DNA of 52,949 bases from Clostridia bacterium (GTDB taxonomy: Bacteria; Bacillota; Clostridia; Christensenellales; Aristaeellaceae). Of the stretch, positions 31,472 through 41,095 are shown in pieces. Each line of letters starts with the position of its first letter. The first letter of the stretch is position 1. The notes under the pieces are model-generated. The model was not told where the DNA came from, did not search any database, and saw nothing but the letters and a program-made list of their open reading frames with translations. A program made the translations under genes and the position numbers. The stretch lies in NCBI GenBank assembly GCA_017547805.1, contig JAFYOR010000112.1, forward strand, positions 1-52,949. Direction: 5' to 3'.

Positions 31472-31590
<119 letters not shown>

Positions 31591-36141: not shown

Positions 36142-36493
36142 GTGGAAGGACAGCTTTCTTCTCTCGCTGCCCGGCGTATGCAAGGATTTTAAGGCGGAAT
36201 GGAACTGGACGCGGTACATGGTCGGCGGAAAGCTCTTCTGCGCCGTGTGTCACGACGAGCGCGGCGGCGAGGTCTTCATCACGATGAAGCTGGAGCCGCT
36301 GCGCGGAGAATTCCTGCGCGGGCAATATGCGGATATTCTTCCCGGATATTATATGAACAAGGTGCATTGGAACTCCGTCGGGGCGGAGGGAAGCGTGCCG
36401 CAGGAGCTTCTGCGGGACATGCTTGAGGAATCCTATCGTCTGGTTGCCGGCGGTCTTGCCAAAAAGACGCGCGCGGCGCTTGGCTTGCTCTGA
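36131..36493 (+). CDS. MmcQ/YjbR family protein
   Basis: The 120-residue protein has a CyaY-like fold with probable DNA-binding character (MmcQ/YjbR, DUF419). Matching segments are SYEWKDSFLLSLPGVCKDFK at the start, the LEPLRGEFLRGQY stretch, DILPGYYMNKVHWNSV and ESYRLVAGGLAKKTR. The role of the family is not well defined. The start is a GTG at 36131, chosen because VSYEW aligns with the family N-terminus; it overlaps the preceding gene by 11 bases and GGGGAGA lies about 8 bases upstream. The frame continues upstream only as an out-of-frame shadow of the HD gene. Confidence 0.87.
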   Translation: MSYEWKDSFLLSLPGVCKDFKAEWNWTRYMVGGKLFCAVCHDERGGEVFITMKLEPLRGEFLRGQYADILPGYYMNKVHWNSVGAEGSVPQELLRDMLEESYRLVAGGLAKKTRAALGLL

Positions 36494-36538
36494 TTCTGAT
36501 AAAGATTGGGAAGGGATGTCCGAAACGTTCGCTTCCCC

Positions 36539-36567
36539 TTGACAGATGCAGAGAATTCCTGTAAGAT
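36539..36567 (+). promoter_or_regulatory. Sigma-A promoter of the carAB leader
   Basis: TTGACA, a 17-bp spacer, TAAGAT. Predicted start near 36574, giving a leader of about 230 nt to carA. Confidence 0.8.
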
Positions 36568-36650
36568 TAACGGATGAAGTCGGTGATTGTTCGGATTTGG
36601 ACGATCCCGGATACATACGATACACAAGTGAAAAGGAAGGGGAAGTCAGC

Positions 36651-36710
36651 ATGAACCAGAGCGCTTGTCAGATGCAGCTGTCTTCGTCTTTTTCTTTTGT
36701 GATTGCGTGA
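36651..36710 (+). CDS. Leader peptide of carAB (19 residues)
   Basis: A short ORF with a strong ribosome site (AAGGAAGGGGAAG, then 4-5 bases, then ATG) encodes MNQSACQMQLSSSFSFVIA. Codons 11-16 form a pyrimidine-only, U-rich tract except for one G (36681-36698). The TGA at 36708-36710 is one base before a terminator hairpin. The peptide has no runs of Arg codons, arguing against arginine attenuation. By analogy with E. coli pyrL, translation would be used as a timing device: a ribosome keeping close to a UTP-starved, paused polymerase would block the hairpin. The role is inferred. Confidence 0.7.
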   Translation: MNQSACQMQLSSSFSFVIA

Positions 36711-36742
36711 CAGCCGCCTTTTTGGCGGTTTTCTTTTTCTTG
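36711..36742 (+). terminator. Attenuator (intrinsic terminator) in the carAB leader
   Basis: AGCCGCC at 36712-36718 pairs with GGCGGTT at 36724-36730 (one G-U), with a TTTTT loop and a following TTCTTTTTCTT tail. It lies between the leader peptide and carA with no promoter of comparable quality after it, so readthrough is required for carAB expression. Confidence 0.8.
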
Positions 36743-36806
36743 ACGCGCATGCGGCGCTGCCTGTAACGCTGCGCTGCGTGCGGATTCGATTAAAAGGAGA
36801 GATACA

Positions 36807-37859
36807 ATGGCTACTCTGATCCTTGAGGATGGTTCCCGCTTTGAAGGAACGCTGTTCGGGCATAAGGCTGCCGCTGCCGGCGAGGTTGTCTTTACCACCG
36901 GCATGATCGGCTATCAGGAGGTCGTCACCGATCCCAGCTACGCCGGACAGATCGTGTGCATGACCTATCCGCTGATCGGTAATGTGGGCATCAACGATCT
37001 GGACTTCCAGAGCGCCGGCGCGCACATGAAGGGAATGGTTGTTTCCGAGCTGTGCGATCTGCCCAGCAACTGGCAGACGAAGGATTCGCTGGAAAGCTAC
37101 CTCGATGCGCAGGGCGTGACTGCGCTCTATGGCGTGGATACCCGTGCGCTGACCCGCCATATCCGTGCTGTGGGCGCTATCCGCGGCATGATCGTGGAAG
37201 GCGAAGGCACTCAGGAGGATATTGATGCGCTCAAGGCGCTTAAGGTTGAGAATCCCACGATGGACGTCACCTGCAGGGAAGCGTATGAAGCGGGTGAGGG
37301 CGATGTGACCGTTGCGCTGCTTGATATGGGCACGACGCGCGCGGTGGTCAATAGCCTCACAAAGCGCGGCTGCCGCGTGAAGGTGTATCCGGCGGATACG
37401 GCCGCAGAGGAAATCCTTGCCGCCGGCTGCGACGGCGTGTTTGTTTCCGGCGGCCCCGGCGATCCGGCGGCGCTGCCCGCGGTGATTGAAAATGTGAAGA
37501 AGCTCATGGACGCAAAGCCCACCATGGGCGTGTGTATGGGTCATCTGCTCATGGCGCGCGCCATGGGCGGCAATACCGTGCGCATGAGCTACGGCCATCA
37601 CGGCGGCAATCAGCCGGTGAAGGATATTGCCCGCGGCACCTGCGTGGTGACCAGCCAGAGCCATCTGTATCTGGTGGATAAGGACAACCTGCCGGTAAAC
37701 GCCGAGGTCAGCCATATCAACTGGAACGACAGGACCATCGCCGGTCTTCGCTATACCGACCGCGCTGCGTTCTCCGTGCAGTTCGTGCCGGACGGCGGCA
37801 AATGCCCCAGCGGCACGCATTATCTCTATGACGCGTTCATCGCAGGTCTGAAGAAGTAA
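36807..37859 (+). CDS. carA: Carbamoyl-phosphate synthase small subunit with a degenerate glutaminase site
   Basis: The 350-residue protein matches CarA end to end: an N-terminal domain (GYQEVVTDPSY, VDTRALTRHIR) and a class I glutamine amidotransferase domain with SGGPGDP and the nucleophile Cys243 in GVCMGH. However, the catalytic His and Glu (HPE in other CarA, His353/Glu355 in E. coli) are replaced by Val327 and Asp329 in FVPD. Gln273, Asn311 and Gly313 counterparts, which bind glutamine, are Leu247, Ser285 and Leu287. Glutaminase activity is therefore probably lost, while the subunit may still support CarB. AAAGGAGAG precedes the ATG; carB follows after 14 bp. Expression is probably controlled by the leader attenuator. 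Confidence 0.93.
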   Translation: MATLILEDGSRFEGTLFGHKAAAAGEVVFTTGMIGYQEVVTDPSYAGQIVCMTYPLIGNVGINDLDFQSAGAHMKGMVVSELCDLPSNWQTKDSLESYLDAQGVTALYGVDTRALTRHIRAVGAIRGMIVEGEGTQEDIDALKALKVENPTMDVTCREAYEAGEGDVTVALLDMGTTRAVVNSLTKRGCRVKVYPADTAAEEILAAGCDGVFVSGGPGDPAALPAVIENVKKLMDAKPTMGVCMGHLLMARAMGGNTVRMSYGHHGGNQPVKDIARGTCVVTSQSHLYLVDKDNLPVNAEVSHINWNDRTIAGLRYTDRAAFSVQFVPDGGKCPSGTHYLYDAFIAGLKK

Positions 37860-37873
37860 GGGGGGAGTTCATC

Positions 37874-40800
37874 ATGCCGAAGAAGGAATGGATTAAGAAG
37901 GTACTGGTGATCGGCTCCGGCCCGATCGTTATCGGTCAGGCGGCCGAGTTTGACTATGCCGGCACGCAGGCCTGCCGCGTCCTCAAGGAAGAGGGCATCG
38001 AGGTCGTGCTTGTCAACTCCAACCCGGCGACCATCATGACCGACACGAGCATCGCGGACAAGGTGTATCTTGAGCCGCTGACCCTCGAGTCGATGGAAAA
38101 GATCATCGCCCGCGAGCGTCCGGACAGCCTGCTTGCGTCCCTTGGCGGACAGACGGGCCTCAACATGGCGATGGAACTGGACGAAAAGGGCATCCTTGAA
38201 AAGTACAACGTTCAGCTGCTGGGCACGAAGATCGACTCCATCCGCCGCGCGGAGGATCGTGAGGACTTCAAGAACAGCATGATCGAGATTGGCGAGCCGT
38301 GCATCGACTCCGTCATCGTTCACGACGTGCAGTCCTCTGTCGACTTTGCCAATGAGGTGGGCTATCCGGTCATCGTGCGTCCGGCGTATACGCTGGGCGG
38401 CACGGGCGGCGGCATCGCTGAGGACGAGAAGCAGCTGCGCGAAATCTGCGCGGACGGTCTGCGTTCTTCCCGTGTGCATGAAAACCTGATCGAGCGCAGC
38501 GTCGCCGGCTGGAAGGAAATCGAATACGAAGTTATCCGCGACGGCGCCGGCAACAGCATCGTCGTGTGCAACATGGAAAACATGGACCCGGTCGGCGTCC
38601 ACACGGGCGACTCCATCGTCGTCGCGCCGACGCAGACCCTGCGCCTTGAGGAGCACGAGATGCTGCGCACCTCCGCGCTGTCCATCATCGAGGCGCTGGG
38701 CATCGAGGGAGGCTGTAACGTGCAGTATGCGCTGGATCCGAATTCCATGAAGTATTACCTTATCGAGGTCAACCCGCGCGTTTCCCGCTCCTCCGCGCTG
38801 GCCTCCAAGGCGACCGGCTATCCGATTGCCAAGGTCACGACCCGCATCGCGCTGGGCTATAACCTGGATGAAATTGAAAACGGCGTGACCGGCTGCACCT
38901 ACGCCTGCGCCGAGCCGACGATTGACTATGTGGTGCTCAAGTTCCCGCGCTGGCCGTTTGATAAGTTTGTCTACGCCGATAAGCATATCGGCACCAAGAT
39001 GAAGGCCACGGGCGAGATCATGTCCATCGGCAATACGTTCGAAAGCGCGATGCTCAAGGCTGTGCGCTCCCTTGAAATGGGCATGGACAGCCTCGTTGTG
39101 CCGGCGCTGGAGGCGCTGTCCGATGAGGAGATCGAGCACCGCCTGCATGAAATCAACACCGAGCGTTCCTTCGTCGTTGCCGAGGCGCTGCGCCGCGGCG
39201 TGACCATGGAGCACATCCATGACATCACGAAGATCGACCTCTGGTTCCTGAAAAAGGTGCTCAATATCGTCTCCACCGAGCAGAAGCTGCGCGCTCTGCC
39301 GGGCAAGGAGGCGCTGACGTACGATCTGCTGCTTGCGGTCAAGAAGATGGGCATGGCGGATAAGGCCATCGCGCGCTTCGTCGGCTGCGAGGAGGGCGAG
39401 ATCCGCGCCATGCGCAAGGAGATGAGCATTCTTCCGGCGTTCCGTCTGGTCGATACCTGCGCGGGCGAGTTTGACGCGGTTTCTCCGTATTTCTACAGCG
39501 TGTACGGCACGAAGACCGAGTCCTTTAATACCGGCAAGAAGACCGTCGTGGTGCTGGGCTCCGGCCCGATCCGCATCGGTCAGGGCATCGAGTTTGACTA
39601 TTGCTCGGTGCACTGCGTCTGGGCGCTGAAGAAGGCCGGTTTTGACACCGTCATCATCAATAACAACCCGGAAACCGTTTCCACCGACTTTGACACCGCG
39701 GATCGCCTCTACTTTGAGCCGCTGACCCCGGAAGACGTGTGGAACGTGCTGGAGATTGAGCAGCCGGTCGGCGTCGTCTGCCAGTTCGGCGGACAGACGG
39801 CCATCAAGCTGGCCAAGGCTGTGCGTCAGGCGGGCTACCCGATTCTGGGCACCGACCTTGCGGATATCGACGCTGCCGAGGACCGCGAGCTGTTTAACGC
39901 CCTGCTCAACAAGCTGGGCATCCCGCAGCCCAAGGGCACGACCGTCTTCACCGCGGACGAGGCCGTCGCCGCCGCCAATGAGCTGGGCTACCCGGTTCTG
40001 GTCCGTCCCAGCTACGTGCTTGGCGGTCAGGGCATGGAAATCGCGTATGATGAAAAGCACATCCGCGAGTACATGCAGATCATCAACATGAACATTCAGG
40101 AGCATCCGATCCTCGTTGACAAGTATCTGCTCGGCCGCGAAATTGAGGTCGACGCGATCTGTGACGGCGAAAATGTGCTCATCCCGGGCATCATGGAGCA
40201 TATCGAGCGCGCGGGCATCCACTCCGGCGACTCCATCTCCGTTTATCCGCCGCAGCATCTTGCCCCGCGCATCCAGCGCATGGTGACCGATTACACGATC
40301 AACATTGCGCGCAGCCTGCACGTCAAGGGTCTGGTGAACATCCAGTTCATCGAGTATGCGGGCGATCTGTACATCATCGAGGTCAACCCGCGCTCTTCCC
40401 GCACGGTGCCCTACATCTCCAAGGTCACGGGCATTCCGATCGTCGAGCTGGGCGTGCGCGCGTCCCTGGGCGAGAGCGTCCCGGCGATGGGCTTTGGCAC
40501 GGGTCTTTACCCGCCGGCCCCGACCGTCGCGGTCAAGATGCCGGTCTTCTCCTTTGAAAAGCTGCCGGAGGTCGAGGTTTCCCTTGGACCGGAAATGAAG
40601 TCCACCGGCGAAGCGCTCGGCCTTGCCGAAACCGCCGAGGAAGCGTACCTCAAGGGCTTTGCCTCCACGAAGATGGCGATCCCGAAGCCGGAAGAGGGCG
40701 GCGTGCTTTTCGCCATCGCCAACCACGACAAGCGCGAGGCGCTTGCCCTGGCGGAGACCTTCGCCGCGCTGGGCTTTGAGATCTATGCTACGGGCGGCAC

Positions 40801-41095
40801 GGCGCATATGCTCAACCACAACTATGTCGGCGCGCACAGCGTGCCGCGCCCGGGCGAGGATACGGACGCGCTTGCCAAGCTCTTTGACTCCGGCAAGATC
40901 CGCCTGATCATCACCACTCCGACGCATGGCCGCGATCCGCTGCGCGCGGGCTTCCGTCTGCGCCGCATGGCGGTTGAGTACGGCATCGCCTGCGTCACCA
41001 GCATTGACACGGCGAAGCTGCTGATGAAGTGCGTGAAGCTGGGCAAGAAGGAGAGCGAGATTCCGGCGCTGGGCCTGCACGAGCTGATTCTGTAA
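37874..41095 (+). CDS. carB: Carbamoyl-phosphate synthase large subunit
   Basis: The 1073-residue protein makes carbamoyl phosphate from bicarbonate, ammonia and two ATP, for pyrimidine and arginine synthesis. Two homologous ATP-grasp halves are seen: VLVIGSGPIVIGQAAEFDYAG near residue 10 and VVVLGSGPIRIGQGIEFDY near 557. Each carries a glycine-rich loop (TLGGTGGG and VLGGQG) and EVNPR metal sites, and the last 130 residues form the MGS-like allosteric domain. All looks intact. GGGGGGAG precedes the ATG. In normal CarB, ammonia arrives through a tunnel from CarA; with this CarA's altered glutaminase, free ammonia may be the nitrogen source. Confidence 0.97.
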   Translation: MPKKEWIKKVLVIGSGPIVIGQAAEFDYAGTQACRVLKEEGIEVVLVNSNPATIMTDTSIADKVYLEPLTLESMEKIIARERPDSLLASLGGQTGLNMAMELDEKGILEKYNVQLLGTKIDSIRRAEDREDFKNSMIEIGEPCIDSVIVHDVQSSVDFANEVGYPVIVRPAYTLGGTGGGIAEDEKQLREICADGLRSSRVHENLIERSVAGWKEIEYEVIRDGAGNSIVVCNMENMDPVGVHTGDSIVVAPTQTLRLEEHEMLRTSALSIIEALGIEGGCNVQYALDPNSMKYYLIEVNPRVSRSSALASKATGYPIAKVTTRIALGYNLDEIENGVTGCTYACAEPTIDYVVLKFPRWPFDKFVYADKHIGTKMKATGEIMSIGNTFESAMLKAVRSLEMGMDSLVVPALEALSDEEIEHRLHEINTERSFVVAEALRRGVTMEHIHDITKIDLWFLKKVLNIVSTEQKLRALPGKEALTYDLLLAVKKMGMADKAIARFVGCEEGEIRAMRKEMSILPAFRLVDTCAGEFDAVSPYFYSVYGTKTESFNTGKKTVVVLGSGPIRIGQGIEFDYCSVHCVWALKKAGFDTVIINNNPETVSTDFDTADRLYFEPLTPEDVWNVLEIEQPVGVVCQFGGQTAIKLAKAVRQAGYPILGTDLADIDAAEDRELFNALLNKLGIPQPKGTTVFTADEAVAAANELGYPVLVRPSYVLGGQGMEIAYDEKHIREYMQIINMNIQEHPILVDKYLLGREIEVDAICDGENVLIPGIMEHIERAGIHSGDSISVYPPQHLAPRIQRMVTDYTINIARSLHVKGLVNIQFIEYAGDLYIIEVNPRSSRTVPYISKVTGIPIVELGVRASLGESVPAMGFGTGLYPPAPTVAVKMPVFSFEKLPEVEVSLGPEMKSTGEALGLAETAEEAYLKGFASTKMAIPKPEEGGVLFAIANHDKREALALAETFAALGFEIYATGGTAHMLNHNYVGAHSVPRPGEDTDALAKLFDSGKIRLIITTPTHGRDPLRAGFRLRRMAVEYGIACVTSIDTAKLLMKCVKLGKKESEIPALGLHELIL

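Follow-up and report, generated by a model that had tools for sequence, protein, structure and literature searches.

How is carAB, which encodes the two subunits of carbamoyl-phosphate synthase, controlled in a clostridial lineage that also has PyrR? The pyrimidine genes of Gram-positive bacteria are said to be PyrR-controlled, and nucleotide-responsive premature termination or start-site switching is given as the commoner Gram-negative way (PMC13328217, excerpt). The window, by which we mean the whole stretch of 52,949 nucleotides that was analysed (contig C110 of genome G000; genome of 2.67 Mb, 83% complete), has a short leader in front of carAB. A first-pass annotation had read this leader as a UTP-sensing attenuator resembling that of E. 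coli pyrBI. We arrived at a related reading, which we hold to be fairly probable: the carAB leader is a translation-coupled pyrBI-like attenuator plus a gate on the leader's own ribosome site, with UTP as the presumed signal. carAB is then probably switched on when UTP is scarce, and a PyrR-bearing genome appears to govern carAB by a pyrBI-like translated leader instead. What is new is a pyrBI-like attenuator at carAB, beside PyrR, with a predicted helix (the lid) over the leader's SD and AUG. No such attenuator, for carAB or in this lineage, was among the matches listed when titles and abstract openings of the open-licence PMC literature were searched.

Table 1. Parts of the carAB leader and the genes behind it (window coordinates)
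Feature	Position	Strand	Basis or detail
Promoter P1, TTGACA-17-TAAGAT	36539..36567	+	10/12 consensus matches
Lid helix 5' arm: SD AAGGAAGGGGAAG and leader ORF start codon	36630..36654	+	predicted pairing with 36674-36699
Leader ORF, 19 codons, peptide MNQSACQMQLSSSFSFVIA	36651..36710	+	ATG 36651, TGA 36708-36710
U/C-rich tract	36674..36699	+	predicted anti-SD arm, presumed UTP-sensitive pause region
Intrinsic terminator (attenuator)	36712..36740	+	stem AGCCGCC-TTTTT-GGCGGTT 36712-36730
Possible promoter P2 remnant	36740..36768	+	TTGACG retained, -10 unusable
carA RBS	36793..36801	+	sequence
carA, carbamoyl-phosphate synthase small subunit	36807..37859	+	NCBIfam NF009475, 408 bits, cut-off 221
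carB, carbamoyl-phosphate synthase large subunit	37874..41095	+	NCBIfam NF003671, 1477 bits, cut-off 599

A sigma-70/sigma-A-like promoter, the leader ORF with its RBS, U-rich 3' part, terminator and carA follow one another just as the first-pass annotation had placed them (Table 1). The sequence AAAAGGAAGGGGAAG lies directly 5' of the leader ORF. The terminator stem has seven pairs, five of them G-C; a single base separates it from the leader TGA, and its T-tail is TTCTTTTTCT (36731-36740). We infer that the P1 transcript starts near position 36574. In a 2-kb stretch around the leader, a promoter scan gave two sites where 0.8 were expected by chance, and a terminator scan gave five where 1.6 were expected. 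The scans alone leave function unproven, and it is the relatives that supply the proof.

Rfam scans of the leader were in keeping with the earlier statement that neither a PyrR element nor a T-box is present there. No family reached its gathering score at the leader in the window scan, and a permissive scan of positions 36400-36900 returned a single weak match on the opposite strand (sucC, 17.1 bits; gathering score 50, E 0.6). A T-box or riboswitch leader was rejected on this basis, as no Rfam family matched at the window leader or at the loci of four relatives. The window's only Rfam match above gathering score was a 5S rRNA gene at 31474-31590 (102.7 bits), which has no 16S or 23S rRNA Rfam match beside it.

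A carA match was obtained in 26 of the 29 genomes of the genus, and 18 of these genomes have a carA of the type seen in the window. Besides the window's own genome, the 17 with this type show 58-64% identity (best match), and the remaining eight carA genomes 41-46%. The leader precedes carA in 16 of the 18 (loci L001, L005-L009, L011, L012, L015-L021 and L056). L013 has no leader, only a bare hairpin one base after the purA stop. L010 is unjudgeable, its contig beginning 19 nt before carA, and L014 comes from the same genome as L056; neither was counted. The leader was also found in three genomes of a second genus (L034-L036), giving a total of 19, and carA without leader was found in two further genera (L037 and L038). 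The leaderless carA loci used for comparison were L013, L037 and L038.

A model of the leader, R1, was built from 12 of the 19 leaders, a set without L009, L011, L015, L056 and the three second-genus leaders. At the carA loci L022-L055 (apart from L034-L038), presence of the leader was judged by R1 alone. R1 matched 15 of 308 family genomes, once each and always at carA, and three of these were outside the model. It missed G025 (leader L011) and all genomes outside the genus, though three of them carry known leaders. No other gene under the same leader was found by R1 in the 308 genomes with strict filters. A search of named genomes gave three distant carA genes only. The hairpin-plus-tail pattern by itself has a single occurrence in each of 11 of the 29 genus genomes, in every case ahead of carA, and is absent from the other 18.

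In an alignment of the 19 leaders, run as the first-pass annotation had suggested, start codon, U-tract, stop-hairpin distance and hairpin pairing are kept and the peptide is variable. Every leader has a purine-rich RBS and an ATG. The distance from ATG to stem is 61-89 nt across the set and 70-77 nt in 15 of the 19. The leader frame ends at most 8 nt before the stem in 11 leaders, on the first bases of the stem in one and runs through the stem in seven; in none does it stop earlier than 8 nt before the hairpin (the stop of L009 was read directly from the sequence). All 19 thus have an RBS-bearing leader ORF that reaches or crosses the terminator, with a promoter directly upstream in eight, the window included. 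The peptides are dissimilar among the 19, and the leader alignment has no invariant column between ATG and hairpin. In shuffles that ignore kinship, the chance of a leader frame open to the hairpin in all 19 was about 1e-5. A second frame without stops up to the hairpin exists in 15 of the 19, so openness of the ORF alone carries little information.

The position of the leader relative to its neighbours differs among relatives. purA lies upstream in 11 of the 19 (L005, L007-L009, L011, L012, L021, L034-L036 and L056), and within 250 nt before the ORF no P1 was found in any of these 11. All eight leader loci that do not follow purA have P1 in the form TTGACA-17-TA(N3)T. The 11 leaders without P1 would rely on read-through from purA. 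purA is also found upstream, on the same strand, in the leaderless loci L013 and L037. Where P1 is lacking, transcription from purA could also extend into carAB and so link purine synthesis with that of pyrimidines or arginine. In E. coli rph-pyrE, an intercistronic attenuator uses the end of the upstream gene. The order purA-leader-carAB of the 11 leaders is like this arrangement, in that an attenuator separates a pyrimidine gene from the gene upstream of it, and unlike it in having a dedicated leader ORF.

The proximity of purA raises the question of whether the hairpin merely ends the upstream gene, the ORF being there by chance. Both the purA linkage and the bare hairpin of L013, one base past the purA stop, are what such a terminator would give. 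We regard this explanation as very improbable in view of the RBS and ATG found throughout, of the frame that is open in all leaders against the odds of the kinship-blind shuffles, and of the leader being kept in eight genomes without purA directly upstream, where P1 is found instead.

To place these arrangements in order, we used a tree of carA (23 rows, midpoint root, several long branches). The eight P1 leaders fall together in a single clade (98/97), with the purA-linked leaders outside it, and the leader has been retained with carAB where the purA linkage is gone. The tree suggests that the leader arose first between purA and carAB and that the purA linkage was lost once, with the gain of P1. 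A second promoter, P2 (TTGAC(A/G)-17/18-TATAAT-like), lies between terminator and carA in 17 of the 19 leader loci, the window and L015 being without it; the tree separates these two losses and suggests that the window has lost its P2. It thereby gives a readable history: a leader between purA and carAB, the gain of its own promoter and two losses of P2. The earlier remark that carA has no comparable second promoter is accordingly right for the window genome and wrong for most of the relatives that have the leader. Behind 17 of the 19 leaders, the attenuator would govern only part of carAB transcription because of P2.

Palindromes of the TGTATAATTATACA type, resembling the ARG-box motif, lie just behind P2, 45-150 nt before carA, in L006, L016, L017 and L019. 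P2 as an ARG-box promoter throughout was rejected: a 10-of-10 palindrome was present in just four of the 19 P2 regions scored (17 leader loci plus the leaderless L013 and L037). Of the other regions, six scored 0.007-0.033 against single-base shuffles and nine did not reach 0.05. By eye, repeated ATATNCA-like half-sites were seen behind P2 in several other relatives. ArgR was found in 25 of the 29 genus genomes. By analogy with E. coli, P2 may be an arginine-controlled promoter. E. coli carAB has tandem promoters, P1 responding to pyrimidines and P2 to ArgR (PMC6245113, excerpt). The resemblance extends to the two promoters of six P1-bearing relatives and the palindromes behind P2 in four; the difference is that in the present case an attenuator apparently serves as the pyrimidine arm, and that the window and L015 have P1 only.

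The terminator stem varies in a way that preserves pairing. Within the genus, stem pair 2 is A-U or G-C, and it is G-U in the window, with changes on both sides. In the second genus the core CCGCC/GGCGG has become GGCGG/CCGCC, so that all five core pairs are flipped. The terminator was present in the predicted fold of 18 of the 19 full leaders; in the exception, L015, its arm pairs upstream. An antiterminator for the CCGCC arm was tried and rejected: the pairing of the terminator 5' arm with its own leader was equal to that with swapped leaders (-9.26 versus -9.33 kcal/mol). This test used all 19 full leaders; the lid folds described below were made without the terminator.

These results bear on attenuation by an amino acid, of the trp/his or arginine type, in which a short ORF would likewise precede a terminator. 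Some leaders do contain several codons for Cys, for Phe or, near the start, for Arg. Arg is absent from the window peptide, which has a single Cys, and no codon run is common to the 19 leaders, which upholds the earlier view that arginine attenuation is unlikely. The residues late in the leaders are S (42), F (39), C (23), A (19) and V (17), with Pro and Leu also present; late residues and codons fit no single amino acid, and arginine, cysteine and phenylalanine attenuation were rejected. There is no competing antiterminator arm, and the terminator folds in nearly every leader. Amino-acid attenuators keep more than 20 bp between stop and terminator, and in pyrBI the leader gene contains the terminator (PMC4824070, excerpt); the stop-to-stem distance here is too short for the amino-acid class. 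We therefore consider amino-acid attenuation scarcely credible. Experiments in E. coli show that the ribosome represses a terminator located a few bp after a stop codon (PMC4824070, excerpt). Since the leader stop codon adjoins the stem, as in these ribosome-repressed terminators, the layout is of the pyrBI kind.

What, then, could the ribosome respond to? The T fraction in the last 30 nt before the terminator is 0.40-0.60 in 18 leaders and 0.57 in L005, compared with a background of 0.19 upstream of the leaders. A terminator scan of the window, L005-L055 and L074-L080 yielded 42 terminators, 17 of them carA leaders (the stems of L009 and L056 were missed); the T fraction of the preceding 30 nt was at least 0.40 in all 17 and in two of the 25 others. 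Codon choice shows the same excess. T occupies the third position of 103 of the 197 codons in the last 36 nt, while 29.7 were expected from carAB usage for the same amino acids. Cys codons were TGT:TGC = 19:4 in this stretch versus 17:268 in carAB. The z-values for the late-leader T excess were 16.7 and 16.3, with independence overstated as the sequences are related; with the amino acids given, z was 7.2 before the last 36 nt versus 16.3 within them. Even at more than 60 nt from the hairpin, third-position T was found in 23 of 69 codons (5.3 expected). Judged from these sequence counts, late-leader U-richness exceeds what the amino acids need and is selected at the nucleotide level, partly confounded with SD pairing: part of the U/C-richness of the tract can be put down to its pairing with the A/G-rich SD.

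A pyrimidine-rich tract might instead be an entry site for Rho, which would then exert control when the leader is untranslated. Rho was above cut-off in 18 of the 29 genus genomes, the window's own included, and in species with runaway transcription Rho is drawn to RNA rich in pyrimidines (PMC13323073, excerpt). The tract, though, is short and predicted to be paired, U exceeds C behind the lid, and a strong intrinsic terminator follows at once. We give Rho control little credence.

The tract has a second property. In the predicted fold of the window leader, the RBS is joined to the U-rich tract, and in all 19 leaders the SD/AUG region is paired with the tract, over 7 to 23 nt. The first-pass annotation had taken the tract for a UTP pause region; the U-rich tract is indeed kept, and its complementarity to its own SD and AUG had been missed. 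When the pairing was compared with that of shuffled tracts, it scored at or below 0.05 in 12 leaders and above 0.05 in seven. The leader RBS pairs with the tract better than the carA RBS does in 18 of the 19. For the tract-swap and both-side-change tests, the near copies L036 and L017 were omitted. Over the 17 leaders left, the pairing of each RBS with its own tract summed to -394.2 kcal/mol versus -336.6 (sd 13.8) for permuted tracts (p = 5e-5; 1 of 20,000 permutations), and pair types differed on both sides at 22 of 26 helix offsets, the helices having been chosen by prediction. RBS and tract are thus complementary beyond swapped controls over the set. Among single leaders, support against swapped tracts was strong in L005, L007, L009, L012, L015 and L035. 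In five of the 17 (the window, L019, L021, L034 and L056) the lid showed no advantage over pairing with swapped tracts: in the window it has -20.8 against a swapped mean of -20.9, and that of L056 is clearly worse (-17.6 versus -25.1).

This complementarity also suits a ribosome-gated attenuator with a signal other than UTP (a protein, a small RNA, ribosome supply or something related to arginine), whose tract would be U/C-rich only for SD pairing. carAB also supplies arginine synthesis, in a genus where ArgR is widespread. If pairing were the whole reason, however, the stretch between lid helix and terminator, where the lid has no need of it, should not be as U-rich as it is (T 0.49, C 0.16), and in the lid itself 46 of 173 partners of G are U, not C. 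The lack of an invariant column between ATG and hairpin leaves nothing that resembles a ligand pocket, and in a scan of the P2 regions the four palindromes most like an ARG box were located downstream of P2. We judge a non-UTP signal unlikely.

For the UTP-dependent attenuator, which we prefer, the following sequence of events can be envisaged. Transcription would start at P1; the first part to appear would be the leader SD and AUG, on which a ribosome may load, and RNA polymerase would go on to make the U-rich tract. With ample UTP, polymerase would pass the tract fast and the finished tract would pair with SD and AUG. With the lid closed no ribosome would follow, the terminator would fold and transcription would end after ~165 nt. 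At low UTP, polymerase would linger in the U-rich stretch, and a ribosome could load before the lid closes and catch up. Having reached the stop codon, a single base short of the stem, this ribosome would cover the terminator 5' arm and keep the terminator from folding, and carAB would be transcribed. The pyrBI-like layout of the first-pass annotation thus stands, by its conservation in 19 leaders; UTP as the signal, pausing, masking by the ribosome and the lid's role in timing we infer.

The U-rich tract may, on the predicted folds, be a lid as well as a clock. Slow synthesis at low UTP would delay the very sequence that closes the ribosome site, setting up a race with ribosome loading. Such a device may function even in cells whose polymerase normally runs ahead of the ribosomes, and pyrL of E. 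coli and Klebsiella may be a weak instance of it. We offer this extension tentatively and think it rather less than an even bet. In E. coli pyrL (L116:278-415), the SD CGGGAGGA is predicted to pair with the U-tract UCUUCCCG, not better than single-base shuffles (0.24-0.37), and a similar SD:U-tract pairing is predicted for Klebsiella pyrL (L117:60-200, one record).

Bacillota have been classed as having runaway transcription, with polymerase outrunning ribosomes (PMC13323073, excerpt), as described for B. subtilis (PMC7858274, excerpt). The weak coupling expected in Bacillota counts against a coupled attenuator. Coupling measures for the lineage, taken at nine terminators, were stop-to-terminator distances of 7, 7, 7, 14, 18, 19, 28, 61 and 92 nt and a purine excess of 0.04. 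If the carAB leader works in a runaway-transcription lineage, it would show under which conditions coupling can be regained, a question that the lid makes directly testable.

E. coli pyrBI has a leader gene with an RBS and a U/C-rich tract ~20-40 nt before an intrinsic terminator that is masked by the ribosome (PMC5021804 and PMC4824070, excerpts). The carAB leader shares the RBS-bearing ORF, the U/C-rich tract and the intrinsic terminator with pyrBI (pyrL). In E. coli pyrL (L116) the distance from ATG to stem is 90 nt, and the T fraction in the last 30 nt is 0.40. The carAB leader differs from pyrBI in its target, in an unrelated peptide and in a stop codon that usually lies just before the stem (behind it in pyrBI). 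Its predicted lid over SD and AUG is longer, and the lineage also has PyrR. Another RNA element upstream of carA is the carA motif of Polynucleobacter: in betaproteobacteria it forms an extended imperfect hairpin that adjoins the carA RBS (PMC8632094, excerpt); neither a leader ORF nor a terminator is among its features described in the excerpt of PMC8632094. The PyrR/RF00515 attenuation of Gram-positive pyr operons also governs pyrimidine genes by termination, whereas the carAB leader has no PyrR box, appears to be translated and has no antiterminator.

PyrR itself was above cut-off in 20 of the 29 genus genomes, the window's own included. An RF00515-like element was found at E <= 0.001 in 19 of the 29, above gathering score in five. 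The sole match of the window's own genome (G000:C38:42635-42742; 46.8 bits, below the gathering score of 54) precedes pyrR, ending 47 nt before the PyrR match, and no RF00515 match was found at the carAB leader. The cluster behind this element consists of pyrR, pyrB, pyrC, pyrF, a pyrK-like gene (168 bits, below the cut-off of 314) and pyrD, and is separate from carAB. The first-pass annotation had seen no PyrR element at the carAB leader; it had missed that the genome has PyrR and a PyrR-box-like element on other pyrimidine genes.

By eye, a PyrR-box-like element lies near apparent pyrK, pyrD, pyrF and pyrE genes in L075 (G010:C43) and near apparent pyrC, carB and pyrF genes in L077 (G021:C17). 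In both cases element and pyrR are on different contigs, and G010 and G021 gave no carA match. The assigned genus may be heterogeneous. G003, G006-G009, G020 and G027 (3.4-5.0 Mb) are assigned to it; they have neither PyrR nor Rho above cut-off, and their carA, where found, is of another type. In G003, G007, G008, G009 and G027, carA lies, by eye, directly behind an apparent ornithine carbamoyltransferase gene.
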